The notes below the pieces were generated by a model that saw nothing but the letters and a program-made list of their open reading frames with translations, was not told the origin of the DNA and searched no databases. A DNA stretch of 64,000 nucleotides, from the NCBI GenBank assembly GCA_937128795.1, contig CAKZMQ010000007.1, positions 248,001 through 312,000 of the forward strand, in the 5' to 3' direction. Made by a program: the position numbers and the translations under genes. This document shows, piece after piece, positions 4,185 through 61,680 of the stretch (positions are counted from its first letter, which is position 1; every line of letters begins with the position of its first letter). The DNA is from an uncultured Solirubrobacterales bacterium. Lineage in GTDB: Bacteria > Actinomycetota > Thermoleophilia > Solirubrobacterales > JACPNS01.

Positions 4185-4285
4185 CCGCAATTTGCGACCA
4201 AGGCCTCGCACCTGGTGTGAGGCCTTGGTCGCAATTTGCATGCAACCTGTGGCACCTGGTGCCACAGGTTGGTCGGAAATTGCGG
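4185..4285 (+). repeat. Dispersed ~100-bp double-palindrome element, copy 1 (palindrome A 4194-4232, palindrome B 4243-4271)
   Basis: A: GCGACCAAGGCCTCGCACC-T-GGTGTGAGGCCTTGGTCGC (18/19 arm match); B: CAACCTGTGGCACC-T-GGTGCCACAGGTTG (perfect); aligns with the reverse complement of 24459-24562. Confidence 0.85.
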
Positions 4286-4295
4286 GGTTTTGGCG

Positions 4296-4598
4296 TTAGT
4301 CGGCGGGTTGGTCGGGATCGGCGAAGGTGTAGCCCTTGGGTGGGAGAAGCTCCTCGGGGTAGTCGAGGTCTTCTCCGCAGCGGGGGCAGACTTGAACGGC
4401 GATGCCGACTTCGGCGTTGCAATTGGGGCATTCGCGGCGCGGATCGAGTCGCGTGGAACGGCTTGCCCAAGCGGCGATCAGCCCGATCACTGGCAGAATC
4501 GCGCCGACGATGAACCAGACCGCGAACGAGGAGCCTTTGTATTTGCCGACTGCGCCGGTGAGCAGACCGAAGATCAGTGGGACCACTGCGTATTCCAT
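4296..4598 (-). CDS. Small membrane protein with C-terminal zinc ribbon (CPNC...CPRC)
   Basis: Two hydrophobic helices followed by CPNCNAEVGIAVQVCPRCGEDL. Confidence 0.7.
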   Translation of the reverse strand: MEYAVVPLIFGLLTGAVGKYKGSSFAVWFIVGAILPVIGLIAAWASRSTRLDPRRECPNCNAEVGIAVQVCPRCGEDLDYPEELLPPKGYTFADPDQPAD

Positions 4599-20645: not shown

Positions 20646-20662
20646 TTGGAGTCGGCCGTTTT

Positions 20663-20697
20663 GGTCCAGGACTCCCCCGCCGGGGGACTCTTGGACC
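20663..20697. repeat. Inverted repeat GGTCCAGGACTCCCCC-GCC-GGGGGACTCTTGGACC
   Basis: 14/16 arm match, in the nfo/dnaE convergent intergenic region. Confidence 0.75.
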
Positions 20698-20733
20698 ATT
20701 TTGCCCCTTCGGAATCACCCCCACCGACGAGCC

Positions 20734-20796
20734 TTGCAAGGTCCGAGGTTGCAAGCGACATTGTGCGTTTCCCGCTTGCAACCTCGGACCTTGCAA
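20734..20796. repeat. Perfect 24-bp inverted repeat TTGCAAGGTCCGAGGTTGCAAGCG / CGCTTGCAACCTCGGACCTTGCAA, 15-nt loop
   Basis: 20734-20757 and 20773-20796 are exact reverse complements. Confidence 0.9.
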
Positions 20797-20879: not shown

Positions 20880-23800
20880 CTAGGAGCTAACCGCGACCCC
20901 TGAAATGTCCTCCAACTCGGCAACAAGCGCAGTACTCCGAGAAACGCCGTAAACGTCACCGCATTCGAGCGCCACTTCGTCTTCGCCGGTCCGAACGACA
21001 ATCTCCAACGGCAGCGGGCCTTTGTGCAGACCAACCACACCGTGGATCTCGCGGACGAACGCTTCAACTGATGGGTGCTCCGCAGTATCTGCGTCGATCA
21101 CCACACGGATCGGTTCGCCGCCGAAAGGGCTGCCGGCGGCCGCGGCCAGTTCCTCCTCCGTTGGCTCGAAGGGTTCGACCTCTTGGGCGACGAGCTTGGT
21201 CTCGCCTCCGCCCTTGTGGTCGATTCGGCCACGCACGGTGACGACCTTGTCGTTTGCAAGGTGCTCCTTGACGGCGTCAAGAGTTTTTGCGAAGACGATG
21301 ATTTCGACCTGCGCCGTCAGGTCGTCGAGCTTGGCGAACATCATTTGGCTGCCGTTCTTGGTGCGGATCGTCTTCGACTCGACGATCATGCCACCGGCCG
21401 TCGCCCACTCGCCGTCTGATTTGCCAAGCAGATCGGAGACCGTGCAATCGACCTTCGCCCTCAGCGCGCCGGCGACTGCCTTCAACGGGTGGTTTGACAA
21501 AAACAGACCGAGCGTTTCTTTCTCGGCGGCAAGCATCTCCGGCTGCTCCCACTCGTCCACGGGAATCGGCGGTCGCGCGATCTTGTGCTCGGTGGCAGCC
21601 GCGACATCACCCATGTCAAAGATCGACCCCTGACCCATGCGCGCATCGTTCTGTTGCTTCACGCCAGCGGCCTGTGCGGCCTCCAGGACTTCGAGCATCC
21701 CCTTGCGGGTGGCGCCGGTGGACTCGAACGCACCGCACTTGATCAGGGACTCGATCGACTTCTTGTTGACCGAGCGATTGTCGACGCGTTCACAGAAATC
21801 CCAAATCGAATCGAATGGTCCAGCCTGCTCGCGCGCGTCGATGATTGCGTCCACGGCAGACCCGCCGACCCCCTTCACAGCCTCGAGGCCGAAGCGAATA
21901 TTGCCCTCGACGACGTTGAAGCGATGGCCGGACTCGTTGACGTCCGGTGGCAGCACCTTGATGCCCATTGCCTCGCACTGCGCTACGAAAAATGGAACCT
22001 TGTCCTTCGTGCTCATGACCGAACTGATCAACGCTGCCATGTATTCGGCCGGATAGTTTGCCTTCAGCCAAGCAGTGCGGTATGCGATCAATCCGTAACA
22101 AGCAGCGTGTGACTTGTTGAAGGAGTAGTCGGCGGCATCCTCATTCATCTTCCAGAGCGCGTCGATCACGCTCTGCTGGGTGCCGGAGGCCAGGCAACCT
22201 TCGACAAACTCTTGCTTGAGGCCCGCCATTTTTTCGCGGTCCTTCTTGCCGATCGCTTTGCGTAGGTCGTCGGCACGCGGCCCGGAAAATCCACCGATCT
22301 CCTTGGCGACCTGCATGTTCTGCTCCTGATAGAGCACGACGCCGTAGGACGTCTCTGTGATCGCACGCAGACGCTCGTCGATGTACTTGATGTTGTCGGG
22401 GTTGCGCTTTCCGCGGGCATACGCCGGGATGTGACTCATGGCACCCGGGCGATAGAGCGCGACGAGCGCGATCAGATCCTCGAACTCGGTTGGACGGACC
22501 TTTTTGAGCGCTTCGCGCATGCCCTCGGACTCGAACTGGAAAACGCCGATCGAATCGCCGCGGGCGAGCATTTCGAAGGTCTTTTCGTCGTCGAGCGGCA
22601 AATTGACCATGTCCGGCCGCTCGCGACCGGATCGCTCGATCACGTCGAGCGCCTCCTCGATCACGTCGAGGTTGCGCAGACCAAGGAAATCCATCTTCAA
22701 CAGTCCGAGCGCCTCGACCGGGCCCATCGCATACTGGGTGATGACCTTGTAGACCTTCTCGGTTTCCGTTGCCGAACGATCCTCGGCGAGCTGCAACGGA
22801 ACGATGTCGGAAAGCGGCTGATCGGCGATCACCACGGCGGCGGCGTGGATCGAGCTGTTGCGCACGGTGTTTTCGAGCCCCTTGGCGAGGTCGACGACCT
22901 GCCTGCTGACGTCGTCGTTCTCGTAGACCTCCATGAGCGGCTGTCCGGGCTTGAGGCAGTCGTCGAAGCTTGGGCTTCTGCCCTGTTCGGGTTCGGGGAT
23001 CAATTTGGCGAGGCGGTCGCCAGTCGCGTAGTCGTGGCCGAGCACGCGCGCGGCGTCGCGCACGGCGGCGCGCGGGAACATTCGACCGAAGGTGATGATT
23101 CGCGCGACGGATTCCTTGCCGTATTTGTCGGAGACGTAGCGGATCACCTGTTCGCGGCCGTGGACCGAGAAGTCGATGTCGATGTCCGGCATGCTCACCC
23201 GCTCGGCGTTGAGGAAGCGCTCGAACAGGAGGTTGTAGGCGAGCGGGTCGACGTCGGTGATGCTGAGCACGTACGAGACGATCGAGCCGGCGGCGCTGCC
23301 ACGGCCAGGACCGACCGCGATGCCGTTGTCCTTGGCGTACTTGACGAAATCCCAGACGATCAGGAAGTAGCTATTGAAGCCCATGTTGTCGATCACCGAG
23401 AGCTCCATCTCGAGGCGTTCGCGGGCCGCCGCAGGCACCGGATCGCCATAGCGCGCGATCAGTCCGGCCTCGGCGATTGCGCGTAGGTACTCGCCGTCGC
23501 TCTCACCGCTAGGCGTCTTGAACTTCGGGATCAGGCGTTTGCCGAGCTCGATTTCCACGTTCACGCGGTCGGCGATTTCGATCGTCGATTCGACCGCTCC
23601 CGGCCATGCGGCGAAATCGCTGTTCATCTCGTCGTTGCTCTTGAGGTAGAACTCGTTGGTGTCGAAGGTCATCTTCGGCTCGGCGAGTGTGCTCTTGGTC
23701 TGAACGCAGAGCAGCGCGGCGTGCGCGTGGTAGTCCTCGCGGCCGAGGTAGTGGACGTCGGCGGTGCCGACGAGCGGGCGGTTGAATTCCTTGGCCAACT

Positions 23801-24392
23801 GCGCGATCTGCGGGTTCGCGCGGTTCTGATCGTCGATCTTGTTTTCCTGAACCTCGAAGTAGACGTCCTCCGGGCCAAAGACCTGAATGAGTTGGTCGGC
23901 ATGCTCACGCGCTTCGGCGACGTTGTTGTCGTTGATCCTGCGGACGAAACGCGATGCCAGGCAGCCGGTCATCGCAATGATGCCCTCGTTGTACTTGTCG
24001 AGCAGCTCCATGTCGACGTTGGCCTTGCCGCGGTGGTAGCCGTCGAGGAAGCCGGCGCTGCAGAGCTTCACGAGGTTGCGGAATCCGACGTCGTTCTCGG
24101 CCAGCAGAGTCAGATGGTTGCGCTCGCGCTTGGCGGTGTCCTTCTTGCGGTGGTCGTCGACGTAGTAGACCTCGCAGCCGAAGACGGGCTTGACGTTTTC
24201 CTTCCTGCAGGCCTCGTAGAGCTCGATCGACCCGTTCATCACGCCGTGGTCGGTCAGACCGAGCGCGGGCTGGTCGAAGGACGCCGCGCGTTTGGCGAGG
24301 TCCTTGATGTGCGCAGCACCGTCGAGCAGCGAATACTCGGAATGCACGTGCAGGTGCGCGACCGGCGCGGAAGTTGTCCCATTCGAACTCAC
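20880..24392 (-). CDS. dnaE: DNA polymerase III subunit alpha
   Basis: HLHVHSEYSLLDGAAHIKDL, GPGRGSAAGSIVSYVLSITDVDPL, MPDIDIDFSVHGREQVIRYV; likely GTG start at 24392, upstream ORF extension covers a repeat element. Confidence 0.95.
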   Translation of the reverse strand: MSSNGTTSAPVAHLHVHSEYSLLDGAAHIKDLAKRAASFDQPALGLTDHGVMNGSIELYEACRKENVKPVFGCEVYYVDDHRKKDTAKRERNHLTLLAENDVGFRNLVKLCSAGFLDGYHRGKANVDMELLDKYNEGIIAMTGCLASRFVRRINDNNVAEAREHADQLIQVFGPEDVYFEVQENKIDDQNRANPQIAQLAKEFNRPLVGTADVHYLGREDYHAHAALLCVQTKSTLAEPKMTFDTNEFYLKSNDEMNSDFAAWPGAVESTIEIADRVNVEIELGKRLIPKFKTPSGESDGEYLRAIAEAGLIARYGDPVPAAARERLEMELSVIDNMGFNSYFLIVWDFVKYAKDNGIAVGPGRGSAAGSIVSYVLSITDVDPLAYNLLFERFLNAERVSMPDIDIDFSVHGREQVIRYVSDKYGKESVARIITFGRMFPRAAVRDAARVLGHDYATGDRLAKLIPEPEQGRSPSFDDCLKPGQPLMEVYENDDVSRQVVDLAKGLENTVRNSSIHAAAVVIADQPLSDIVPLQLAEDRSATETEKVYKVITQYAMGPVEALGLLKMDFLGLRNLDVIEEALDVIERSGRERPDMVNLPLDDEKTFEMLARGDSIGVFQFESEGMREALKKVRPTEFEDLIALVALYRPGAMSHIPAYARGKRNPDNIKYIDERLRAITETSYGVVLYQEQNMQVAKEIGGFSGPRADDLRKAIGKKDREKMAGLKQEFVEGCLASGTQQSVIDALWKMNEDAADYSFNKSHAACYGLIAYRTAWLKANYPAEYMAALISSVMSTKDKVPFFVAQCEAMGIKVLPPDVNESGHRFNVVEGNIRFGLEAVKGVGGSAVDAIIDAREQAGPFDSIWDFCERVDNRSVNKKSIESLIKCGAFESTGATRKGMLEVLEAAQAAGVKQQNDARMGQGSIFDMGDVAAATEHKIARPPIPVDEWEQPEMLAAEKETLGLFLSNHPLKAVAGALRAKVDCTVSDLLGKSDGEWATAGGMIVESKTIRTKNGSQMMFAKLDDLTAQVEIIVFAKTLDAVKEHLANDKVVTVRGRIDHKGGGETKLVAQEVEPFEPTEEELAAAAGSPFGGEPIRVVIDADTAEHPSVEAFVREIHGVVGLHKGPLPLEIVVRTGEDEVALECGDVYGVSRSTALVAELEDISGVAVSS

Positions 24393-24458: not shown

Positions 24459-24562
24459 TCGCAAATTGCGACCAACCTGTGGCACCTGGTGCCACAGGTT
24501 GTATGGAATTTGCGTGGGAGGGCTCACACCTGGTGTGAGGCCTTGGTCGGAGTTTGCGTGGT
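24459..24562 (-). repeat. Dispersed ~100-bp double-palindrome element, copy 2 (palindrome B 24473-24501, palindrome A 24519-24543)
   Basis: CAACCTGTGGCACCTGGTGCCACAGGTTG identical to 4243-4271; A core AGGGCTCACACC-T-GGTGTGAGGCCT; whole segment aligns to copy 1 in reverse orientation. Confidence 0.85.
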
Positions 24563-24574
24563 TTGCGGGTGTGG

Positions 24575-24757
24575 TTAGGTGCGCGGGGCGTTGGTGCGGG
24601 CGAGGATGGCTCCGCCGACTACCGCTGCAACCGCTACTACGCCGACCACGGCGAAGAAGTTCCTGCGGCCGCACGTCGGCGTGATCGCCCGCTTGACCTT
24701 GCGCGTTCCAACGGCCCAGGTGACGCGGCCCAATGTTTCATAGAAAAAGCTGGCCAT
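24575..24757 (-). CDS. Small single-pass membrane protein (60 aa), hypothetical
   Basis: MASFFYETLGRVTWAVGTRKVKRAITPTCGRRNFFAVVGVVAVAAVVGGAILARTNAPRT. Confidence 0.5.
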   Translation of the reverse strand: MASFFYETLGRVTWAVGTRKVKRAITPTCGRRNFFAVVGVVAVAAVVGGAILARTNAPRT

Positions 24758-24831: not shown

Positions 24832-25467
24832 CTAGAAACCCTCAGGATGACGAGCTCGGAAGCCGCGGCTGGAGCGCTTTTCCTTGCGCCAGCGTGGGCC
24901 TTTCTCGCCGCGACCTGAGGTGTCCAGGCGCAGGCCAGCGATCATCACGTAGGCGTGACCGCGATTGGCGTAAACCGTGATCCAGTCACCTTTGCCGCGG
25001 TCGCCCCAGCGCATGTATCCCGACGAGTTGAGCGTCGTGTCCTGCAAGCCGGCGTTGCCGAGCGCGTAGCTGATAGTGCCAGAGCAGTCGTAGCCGCGAT
25101 CGATCCTCTTGAAGGTCTTGTGACCGCCGCCGTAGATGTAGCGCTTCTTCGTGATCTTGTTGGCGGCCCAGACGGCACGCTGAACCTCGAGCGGCGCGCC
25201 TACCGGCGCAATGGCCGTACGGCCGTCGGAAGACAGTTTGGCGCGCAGACCGGGCGTGGTCTCCGGAGTCGGCGCGAACGTCGCACCACCCTGGTTGGTG
25301 GTTGCGCTTTTGCCCTTCGCGGCGTAGGCAGAACCAGCCGATACGGCGGCAACCACGAGTGCGATGGATACTGCGAGGACGACAAAAACGAGGCGGTCAA
25401 GGGTGATCCCTGATGCGTACTTATGTTTTTGTCTGAGTCCGTGTAGGTGTTCGAGAGCGAGCGGCAT
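24832..25467 (-). CDS. NlpC/P60-like secreted cell-wall hydrolase
   Basis: N-terminal hydrophobic signal/anchor; KKRYIYGGGHKTFKRIDRGYDCSGTISYALGNAGL. Confidence 0.75.
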   Translation of the reverse strand: MPLALEHLHGLRQKHKYASGITLDRLVFVVLAVSIALVVAAVSAGSAYAAKGKSATTNQGGATFAPTPETTPGLRAKLSSDGRTAIAPVGAPLEVQRAVWAANKITKKRYIYGGGHKTFKRIDRGYDCSGTISYALGNAGLQDTTLNSSGYMRWGDRGKGDWITVYANRGHAYVMIAGLRLDTSGRGEKGPRWRKEKRSSRGFRARHPEGF

Positions 25468-25470
25468 TCA

Positions 25471-25610
25471 GCCTCCTTCGTGTGCCTACCGGGTTAGCTG
25501 ACGGGCTGGCGCGAAAGGAGCTTGCGCCTCCGCATCGACCGAGGTCTCTGCGAATTAGCCCCAAGGAACAGTGTTTGTTCAAAAACGTGGTTCCCCGGCC
25601 TCCGTCGTTG
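25471..25610 (-). promoter_or_regulatory. Probable c-di-AMP (ydaO/yuaA) riboswitch in the leader of the NlpC/P60-like gene
   Basis: Minus strand contains CCGGGGAACCACG...TTCCTTGGGGCTAATTC...CCCGTCAGCTAACCCGGTAGGCACACGAAGGAGG; resembles conserved GGGGGACCCA.../TTGGGGTGAATC.../CCGTCAGCTAACCTCGTAAGC... Confidence 0.75.
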
Positions 25611-25699
25611 TCCGAGTGACTGGACGGAGTTAGGCTTGCTGTTTGTCGTCTAGAAGACGGGGATAATACACAATCCAATCGACGGATTACGGTCAACCT

Positions 25700-43525: not shown

Positions 43526-43576
43526 GCCGCGATCCTAAGCGGCGAACGTCGTCGCGGCTTGGCAACGATGGAAACT

Positions 43577-43624
43577 GCCGCGTGCCCTGTCCGCGAGGCG
43601 TGCCGCATGGACAGGGCATGCGGC
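43577..43624. repeat. 16-bp inverted repeat GCCGCGTGCCCTGTCC / GGACAGGGCATGCGGC, 16-nt loop
   Basis: 15/16 arm match (43577-43592, 43609-43624). Confidence 0.8.
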
Positions 43625-43660
43625 GGTACGCCGCTTGCGAATCAGGTTTCGATCAGCGAT

Positions 43661-60183: not shown

Positions 60184-60951
60184 CTAGAGACCGCCGATGC
60201 GATTTGGTGGCCAGTAGGTCGCGAACGCTTCGCCAATCATGTTCTCTTTCGGGATCGGCCCCCAAAACCGGCTGTCGTCGCTGTTGTTGCGATTGTCGCC
60301 AAGCATGAAGTACATACCTTCGGGGATCTTGATCTCCATCGAGAAAGTGCAGGTGATTGCGGTCGTGCGCGAATCGTCACAGCTGTCATCGGGATTGATG
60401 TACGGCTCGACCAACTCTTTACCGTTGATGTACGCGTGGCCCTTGATGATCTTCAGGCGGTCTCCCGGCAATCCGATCACGCGCTTGATGAACGCTTGCG
60501 ATTGCTTGCCCTCGGTGGCGACCGGACAGGGCATGTAGTCGCCGGAGAGATCGTCTGGAAGTTCCGAGATCGACGGCAGCGCGACGTACTTCGTTCCGGG
60601 AGCCGGTCCGAAAGATTCACCGTTCTGGATGCCGCATTGTTGCGCCTCGGCGCCCGGCGGCGGGTTGAACACCATCACGTCGCCGCGCTCTGGAGTTCCG
60701 AAACGTCCTTCGATGCGATTGGCGAGTACGCGCTGGCCGACGTCAAGCGTCGGCACCATCGAGGGGCTCGGGATTTTGTACGGCTTCACGAGCAAGTACT
60801 GGATCGTGAACGCGAAGGCGATCGCCACCACAACGATCATCGCGGTTTCGACCGCGGGGCTCATCTGTTTCTTTGGCGACTCTTCAGGCATTTGCGGGCC
60901 AGACTTCTTGCTGTTGGGCGCCTTGCGATCGGCAAACAACGGATGCGACAT
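60184..60951 (-). CDS. lepB: Signal peptidase I (paralogue 1)
   Basis: YKIPSPSMVPTLDVGQRVLANRIEGRFG, KRVIGLPGDRLKIIKGHAYINGK, MLGDNRNNSDDSRFWGPIP. Confidence 0.93.
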   Translation of the reverse strand: MSHPLFADRKAPNSKKSGPQMPEESPKKQMSPAVETAMIVVVAIAFAFTIQYLLVKPYKIPSPSMVPTLDVGQRVLANRIEGRFGTPERGDVMVFNPPPGAEAQQCGIQNGESFGPAPGTKYVALPSISELPDDLSGDYMPCPVATEGKQSQAFIKRVIGLPGDRLKIIKGHAYINGKELVEPYINPDDSCDDSRTTAITCTFSMEIKIPEGMYFMLGDNRNNSDDSRFWGPIPKENMIGEAFATYWPPNRIGGL

Positions 60952-60957
60952 CTAGAA

Positions 60958-61680
60958 CTAAAGCCCGCCGATGCGATTCGGTGGCCAGTAGGTCATGAAG
61001 GCATTGCCGATCAGGTTCTCTTTCGGCACGGGGCCCCAGATCCTGCTGTCGGCGCTGGCATTGCGATTGTCGCCCATCATGAAATAGCTGTCAGGAGCGA
61101 TCGTGATGTCCAACGAGTAGGTGCAGTCGCTACTGAAAGACCCCTCACGATCGCAGCTGTCCTGCTTGTTCACGTACGGCTCGTCGAGCTGTTTGCCATT
61201 GATGTAGACGTGCCCTCGAATCACCTTCAATTCTTCGCCCGGCAGGCCAACCACGCGTTTAATGAAGGCATCTGAGAACTTTCCGGGTGTGCCCCTCGGG
61301 CAGGGCATCTTCGCGGCGAGAAGGTCGTCTCCACCGGATTCGTAGATCAGCCCCGGTAGGTACTCCTGCCCGTCACTTACGCCACATTCGCTCGCTTCGG
61401 CGCCGGCCGGAGGGTTGAATACGACGACGTCTCCGCGTGACGGAGTGCCGAAACGCCCCTCGACGCGGTTGACCAGCACGCGCTGGCCGATCTCGAGCGT
61501 CGGAACCATCGATTCGCTCGGAATCTTGTACGGCTTGACGACGAATGCCTGGATACCGAGCGCAAGTCCGAGGGCAACGGCGACGATTGCCACGAGCTCG
61601 ATGAACGATTCGCTGTTCGACTTGCGCTTGCCGTCTTCGGGACCGTAACCGTCCGGTGCGCCGTCGAGCTGATCGTTCAT
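60958..61680 (-). CDS. lepB: Signal peptidase I (paralogue 2)
   Basis: YKIPSESMVPTLEIGQRVLVNRVEGRFG, KRVVGLPGEELKVIRGHVYINGK, MMGDNRNASADSRIWGPVP. Confidence 0.93.
   Translation of the reverse strand: MNDQLDGAPDGYGPEDGKRKSNSESFIELVAIVAVALGLALGIQAFVVKPYKIPSESMVPTLEIGQRVLVNRVEGRFGTPSRGDVVVFNPPAGAEASECGVSDGQEYLPGLIYESGGDDLLAAKMPCPRGTPGKFSDAFIKRVVGLPGEELKVIRGHVYINGKQLDEPYVNKQDSCDREGSFSSDCTYSLDITIAPDSYFMMGDNRNASADSRIWGPVPKENLIGNAFMTYWPPNRIGGL

Follow-up and report, generated by a model that had tools for sequence, protein, structure and literature searches.

What are the two adjacent palindromes at positions 4185–4285 of the 64,000-nucleotide stretch of Solirubrobacterales DNA analysed here (the window), and how did they come to be repeated, in inverted orientation, elsewhere in it? 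The first-pass annotation had described a dispersed, non-coding element of ~100 bp resembling BIMEs or REPs. We conclude, with a probability of about 0.85, that the element is a mobile, REP-like palindrome whose transposase is a single-strand HUH/Y1 enzyme of the RAYT type. This reading draws on sequence comparisons that document family size, rigid geometry, compensatory changes in stems, adjacency to transposase genes in two species, co-occurrence with one transposase clade (of which one species retains only a remnant) and polymorphic insertion at orthologous sites.

Both palindromes lie where they had been reported, and the two window copies are mutually inverted, with 78% identity over 120 nt. 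Palindrome B is exact, as claimed; palindrome A has one mismatch and its pattern has two occurrences in the window and none in 100 shuffles. Folding as single-stranded DNA gave z-scores of −6.5 to −10.9. Two details of the initial description needed revision. Both palindromes had been said to share a 9-mer core, but bare GGCACCNGGTGCC, allowing two mismatches, is no more frequent than expected by chance (3 found, 3.8 expected), so that the signal lies in the long structure, which held up, and not in the 9-mer. Similarly, the repeat is real but its proposed length is not that of the unit, which is 55 bp long with 10-nt end boxes; each ~100-bp copy consists of two such units that overlap by 11 bp, forming a doublet with a box in common.

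Copy 1 comprises unit A (4186–4240, no strand assigned; covariance model score 72.7 bits, E 1.2e-16), which consists of box CGCAATTTGC, palindrome GACCAAGGCCTCGCACC-T-GGTGTGAGGCCTTGGTC and box GCAATTTGCA, and unit B (4230–4284, minus strand; 81 bits, E 7.7e-19), which reads, GAC side first, CGCAATTTCCGACCAACCTGTGGCACC-A-GGTGCCACAGGTTGCATGCAAATTGCG. Their common box (4230–4240, no strand assigned) reflects a 44-bp offset and is faced by the CATG side of B. Copy 2 joins a B unit (24460–24514, plus strand; 77.7 bits), through a common box at 24504–24514 (again unstranded), to a decayed A unit with three upper-stem mismatches (24504–24558, minus strand; 59.3 bits). Copy 1 is 11 bp from the stop codon of a zinc-ribbon-like gene with sub-threshold Pfam matches (4296–4598, minus strand) for which we found no clear orthologue in sister species. 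Copy 2 is located 16 bp past the stop of a small gene (24575–24757, minus strand) and ~67 bp upstream of the likely start of dnaE (DNA polymerase III alpha; 20880–24392, minus strand), which we place at a GTG (24392); the start listed for the ORF, 24674, is too far upstream. Elsewhere in the window, a c-di-AMP (ydaO/yuaA) riboswitch (25468–25646, minus strand; 62 bits) sits directly upstream of the gene at 24832–25467, and minus-strand ORFs 60184–60951 and 60958–61680, within 60184–61680, are tandem paralogues, 73–78% identical over 169–207 nt.

In general form, the unit is an inverted repeat with a rigid length of 55 bp and a single central base: box CGCAAWTTSC, 35 nt with CACC-N-GGTG at the centre, and box GSAAWTTGCG. 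From one end to the other, it runs through a 10-nt box, a 3-nt mismatched collar, an upper stem of 13–14 bp up to CACC-N-GGTG, then a second collar and the box in inverted form; the resulting hairpin has an internal bulge that is asymmetric (GAC side versus CATG side). A box-gap-box search open to any gap of 22–52 nt returned only matches of exactly 55 bp, all confined to the window's genus. The 44-bp offset recurs in all three doublets of the window's own genome, and the B unit always turns its CATG-like side towards the common box.

A covariance model built from 26 units was used to search 101 genomes; here, G000 denotes the window's own genome (2.4 Mb, draft, 94% complete) and G001–G004 sister species of its genus. 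The search recovered 17 units at 14 loci in G000, 10 units in G001 and eight in G004, with none in G002 or G003 (the assemblies searched are drafts, 82–96% complete, where absence is not proof) and no full-length unit in any of the 98 relatives other than G001 and G004; the remaining genomes of the order yielded a single partial match locus. The family therefore extends well beyond the two window copies, which the first-pass annotation had allowed might be the only ones: palindrome B alone occurs 11 times in the genome, against 0 for a reversed control. Exact palindrome B had no match in GTDB contigs or IMG/VR beyond its own genome, so that the repeat is neither viral nor widespread. In GTDB, the 55-bp box frame gave 12 matches; the 10 from other genera we regard as chance, with 8–12 of 13 stem positions mismatched and the tip absent. 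As the earlier remark that no named family could be recognised would lead one to expect, the element has no Rfam match at the gathering threshold.

Changes in the upper stem are compensatory: both sides have changed in 11 of 13 pairs, and 94% of cells are paired. The observed covariation was matched in 0 of 500 shuffles and collapsed when partners were slid, in a set chosen partly by palindromic patterns; the box-only search left stems unconstrained. Between species, boxes are 85–87% identical and stem arms 41–51%, whereas the arms of the 11 B units within G000 are 99% identical. Constant boxes and tip alongside divergent arms with compensatory pairs indicate that boxes and tip are kept by sequence while arms need only pair, and arms so uniform in one genome yet divergent between species point to homogenisation by recent spread.

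The first-pass annotation had recommended looking for a RAYT, and a Y1_Tnp search of the genus for candidate transposase genes found a RAYT-like gene beside one copy. This intact-looking IS200-like (Y1_Tnp) gene, outside the window at G000:C14:1103–1681 (minus strand), has a B unit ~50 bp upstream. Its product matches Y1_Tnp and REP_Tyr_transpos below the curated cut-offs (27.3 vs 80 bits for NCBIfam NF047646; 20.7 vs 23 bits for Pfam PF01797), which makes this a divergent branch, and it is on motifs, context and weak profile matches that we assign it, putatively, to the family. The HUH histidines H66 and H68 and the tyrosine Y127 are invariant in 21 aligned relatives, and N131 (of Y-xxx-N) is found in most. 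A profile was required to reach, weakly, ISDra2 TnpA (E 0.005) and the E. coli-type TnpA-REP 4ER8 (E 0.13), phmmer with a single transposase having found no match in the PDB; AlphaFold2 on the single sequence gave an unusable model (pLDDT 41).

Among the genomes searched, the closest relatives of the C14 transposase are G001:C12 (57% identical), with a G001-type unit ~65 bp upstream, and G001:C39 (46%), with a palindrome just upstream that bears the same CTGGCACCNGGTGCCAG tip and inner boxes of its own; this latter subfamily is also present at G001:C17, G001:C43 and G004:C5. C14, C12 and C39 form one well-supported clade, and the CACCNGGTG tip is found beside that clade only, other Y1 genes being accompanied by different palindromes. 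G004, where units are diverse and partly decayed, retains the clade only as an internally deleted remnant without the catalytic region, while G002 and G003, which have no units, also lack the clade (as draft assemblies, in which absence is not proof). The transposase gene beside a copy and the matching elements beside its closest relatives thus support the original description of a dispersed, non-coding BIME/REP-like element, and we infer that the C14 transposase mobilises it. Against this reading, the repeat is on the upstream side only of C14, as it is of C12, so that the C14 gene is flanked by one element and not on both sides, and 17 copies is a low number for REPs.

Orthologous gaps differ in occupancy between species. 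The gap upstream of dnaE contains the element in G000 and lacks it in G002, in the same gene order, where a solo GTCCGCAAATTGCGGATTT box is present instead; the G002 assembly has only three exact boxes and, on our rough estimate, one could fall at this empty site by coincidence with a probability of ~1e-4. G000 also has the element after methylmalonyl-CoA mutase, where G001, which shares the convergent neighbour, lacks it, and after peroxiredoxin, where the flanks can be aligned with those of G002, which lacks it, while the gap after an alanine-racemase-like gene has a doublet in G000, nothing in G001 and a different transposase's repeat in G004. Flanks of empty sites are alignable only in part and such sites could be losses, so that by themselves they do not separate gain from loss. 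In five of five species (L222, L228, L229, L230, L226), the region 3′ of thrB carries either a RAYT-type repeat or a gene for a Y1 transposase—the element in G000 and G004, the second subfamily in G001 and Y1 transposase genes in G002 and G003—and is apparently an insertion hot spot or an ancestral common site.

Units are intergenic or directly past stop codons, 5–16 bp beyond them at most loci, and several lie between convergent genes; one runs into the final codons and stop of a uppP-like ORF (L001, ~1488–1500, G000:C1), where the box provides the stop codon (CGCAAATAG) of this undecaprenyl-diphosphatase-like ORF. Outward of the boxes, positions 4–6 are T in 68–80% of ends, and some solo boxes have A/T tracts (e.g. 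G002:C5, G001:C133). Placement just past stop codons and between convergent genes, with such flanks, would suit a bidirectional transcription terminator or mRNA-stabilising hairpin maintained by the host and repeated through selection or gene conversion rather than transposition. We nonetheless consider that explanation improbable: the T tracts are only ~3 long, a terminator scan made no call at copy 1 and linkage to a transposase is left unexplained, while the homogeneity of arms within one genome, set against their divergence between species, together with variable occupancy of orthologous gaps, argues for dispersal and not site-by-site selection. A terminator role may instead be a secondary effect of the element.

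Perfect two-fold symmetry, with fixed boxes and 9-bp core, might bring to mind an operator or nucleoid-type site recognised by a palindrome-binding protein and copied by chance duplications, but a protein that binds duplex DNA has no need of arms that change by compensatory pairs, and copies mostly lie 3′ of genes and not in promoters, making this very unlikely. Least probable of all is an integron attC-like or other recombinase site, for which the long imperfect hairpin and its asymmetric bulge would be apt, since the copies are single and dispersed with no cassette array and the adjoining gene encodes an HUH/Y1 transposase.

If the element is, as we favour, a REP-like palindrome moved by a RAYT, its hairpin would form in single-stranded DNA during replication, and the RAYT would recognise the constant tip (CACC-N-GGTG) and end boxes, cutting and rejoining the element. 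Doublets that share a box, their offset of 44 bp and the solo box together suggest that a 44-nt unit (stem plus one box) is inserted next to a CGCAAWTTGCG box, which would create a box-stem-box arrangement, and a second insertion would then yield a box-sharing doublet. The copy beside the C14 gene may be the master, as its stem is also the majority type elsewhere in G000. Insertions would survive chiefly at positions directly behind stop codons, being tolerated there, and might serve as transcription terminators. A bolder version of this model, which we offer tentatively and think rather doubtful, is that the 44-nt hairpin unit is inserted at a specific 11-bp palindromic box that often forms the apex of a short terminator-like hairpin (AAA-N3-CGCAAWTTGCG-N3-TTT). 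A/T flanks are only mildly enriched at solo boxes (about 6 of 18), which keeps the idea of terminators as targets speculative. If true, insertion would lengthen short terminators and build box-sharing doublets. The REP would then be target-specific and seek out terminators, within a deep lineage of actinobacteria in which one 2.4-Mb genome holds many private RAYT/repeat pairs.

Across the five species we counted ~28 Y1_Tnp-type genes, most with palindromes within ~330 bp that differ from gene to gene and are often found on both sides; inverted palindromes occupy both flanks of G002:C117, G004:C3, G001:C145 and G000:C3. The window also holds repeats of three other transposases from its own genome (C17, C25 and C3). 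At 20733–20796, the inverted pair TTGCAAGGTCCGAGGTTGCAAGCG / CGCTTGCAACCTCGGACCTTGCAA is the repeat that flanks both sides of the Y1_Tnp-like gene G000:C25 (L116); 35 bp from it, at 20662–20698, palindrome TGGTCCAGGACTCCCCCGCCGGGGGACTCTTGGACCA resembles that upstream of the Y1_Tnp-like gene G000:C17 (L122); and 43576–43626 is a ~92% match to long palindromes on both flanks of the Y1_Tnp-like gene G000:C3 (L128). In addition, a leader, GGGGGGTAAACATT-N-CCCTTAA, is conserved just before 14 of 28 Y1_Tnp genes (e.g. L103, L104, L116, L128, L133) and, as scanned, has no occurrence in 352 kb of contig C7; it is possibly a promoter or autoregulatory site common to these transposases.

REP/RAYT systems are well known as such, and it is the anatomy of this one that is unusual; the mechanism by which REPs spread and the basis of the pairing of one transposase with one repeat are still open questions. 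The genus provides a natural series in which boxes and tip stay the same, stems are swapped and transposases are 46–57% identical, and in which one carrier has only a deleted remnant, two species lack the clade and sites occur both empty and filled. This series separates the constant parts of the hairpin (boxes and tip) from arms needed only for pairing, and points to a possible target site. According to a survey of complete genomes (PMC6006769), Actinobacteridae have no class of these enzymes other than the IS type, and our literature search found no earlier report of RAYTs for Thermoleophilia, so that their known host range is probably widened.

REP, BIME or REPIN repeats and their RAYT (TnpA-REP) make up REPtrons, in which short, imperfect intergenic palindromes are dispersed and often paired, each family is tied to one single-copy HUH/Y1 gene with an adjoining repeat, and several families may share a genome (PMC2817692, PMC3116915, PMC6006769). 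The element is likewise short, palindromic, dispersed and paired, an HUH/Y1 gene adjoins one copy and the genome has several families; by broad REP/RAYT standards, it is a multi-copy intergenic palindrome with an adjacent HUH/Y1 gene encoding HUH and a tyrosine with Y-xxx-N, with one repeat family per transposase lineage, although the transposase does not score above the curated family cut-off. Unlike REPtrons, it has few copies, transposases far under the REP_Tyr_transpos cut-off and, in place of a GT[AG]G foot, 10-nt inverted CGCAAWTTSC boxes at both ends plus a constant tip. It therefore falls outside the GTAG-tagged REP super-family (5′ GT[AG]G foot), its feet being GAC and CATG-like with CGCAAWTTSC boxes, and outside the CGTC-tagged super-family, which has a 5′ CGTC foot and no transposase, whereas the element has a transposase and no such foot. 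TIRtrons pair TIRYT-type Y1 genes, without GTAG repeats, with long, sometimes self-complementary flanking repeats that form moderately abundant families (PMC3733652); several other Y1 genes of the genus are similarly flanked on both sides by inverted palindromes, but the repeat of the C14 gene is one-sided and we found no GGGGWSAS consensus in the element. In double-foot REPs (TnpA-Y1 subclass 2.4; PMC6006769), each end of the hairpin has a tag, one being the reverse complement of the other, and a single hairpin here is built likewise, except that its tag is a 10-nt AT-centred box and not GT[AG]G. In the IS200/IS605 family (ISDra2, IS608), the HUH/Y1 enzyme acts on subterminal hairpins and inserts next to a recognition sequence. 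Such insertion is a plausible parallel for the element, but we found no transposase-carrying unit with the element's ends, and the conserved Y-xxx-N is the TnpA-REP pattern. The system is thus best read as REP/RAYT (REPtron/TIRtron-like), occurring in Thermoleophilia and marked by a new tag.
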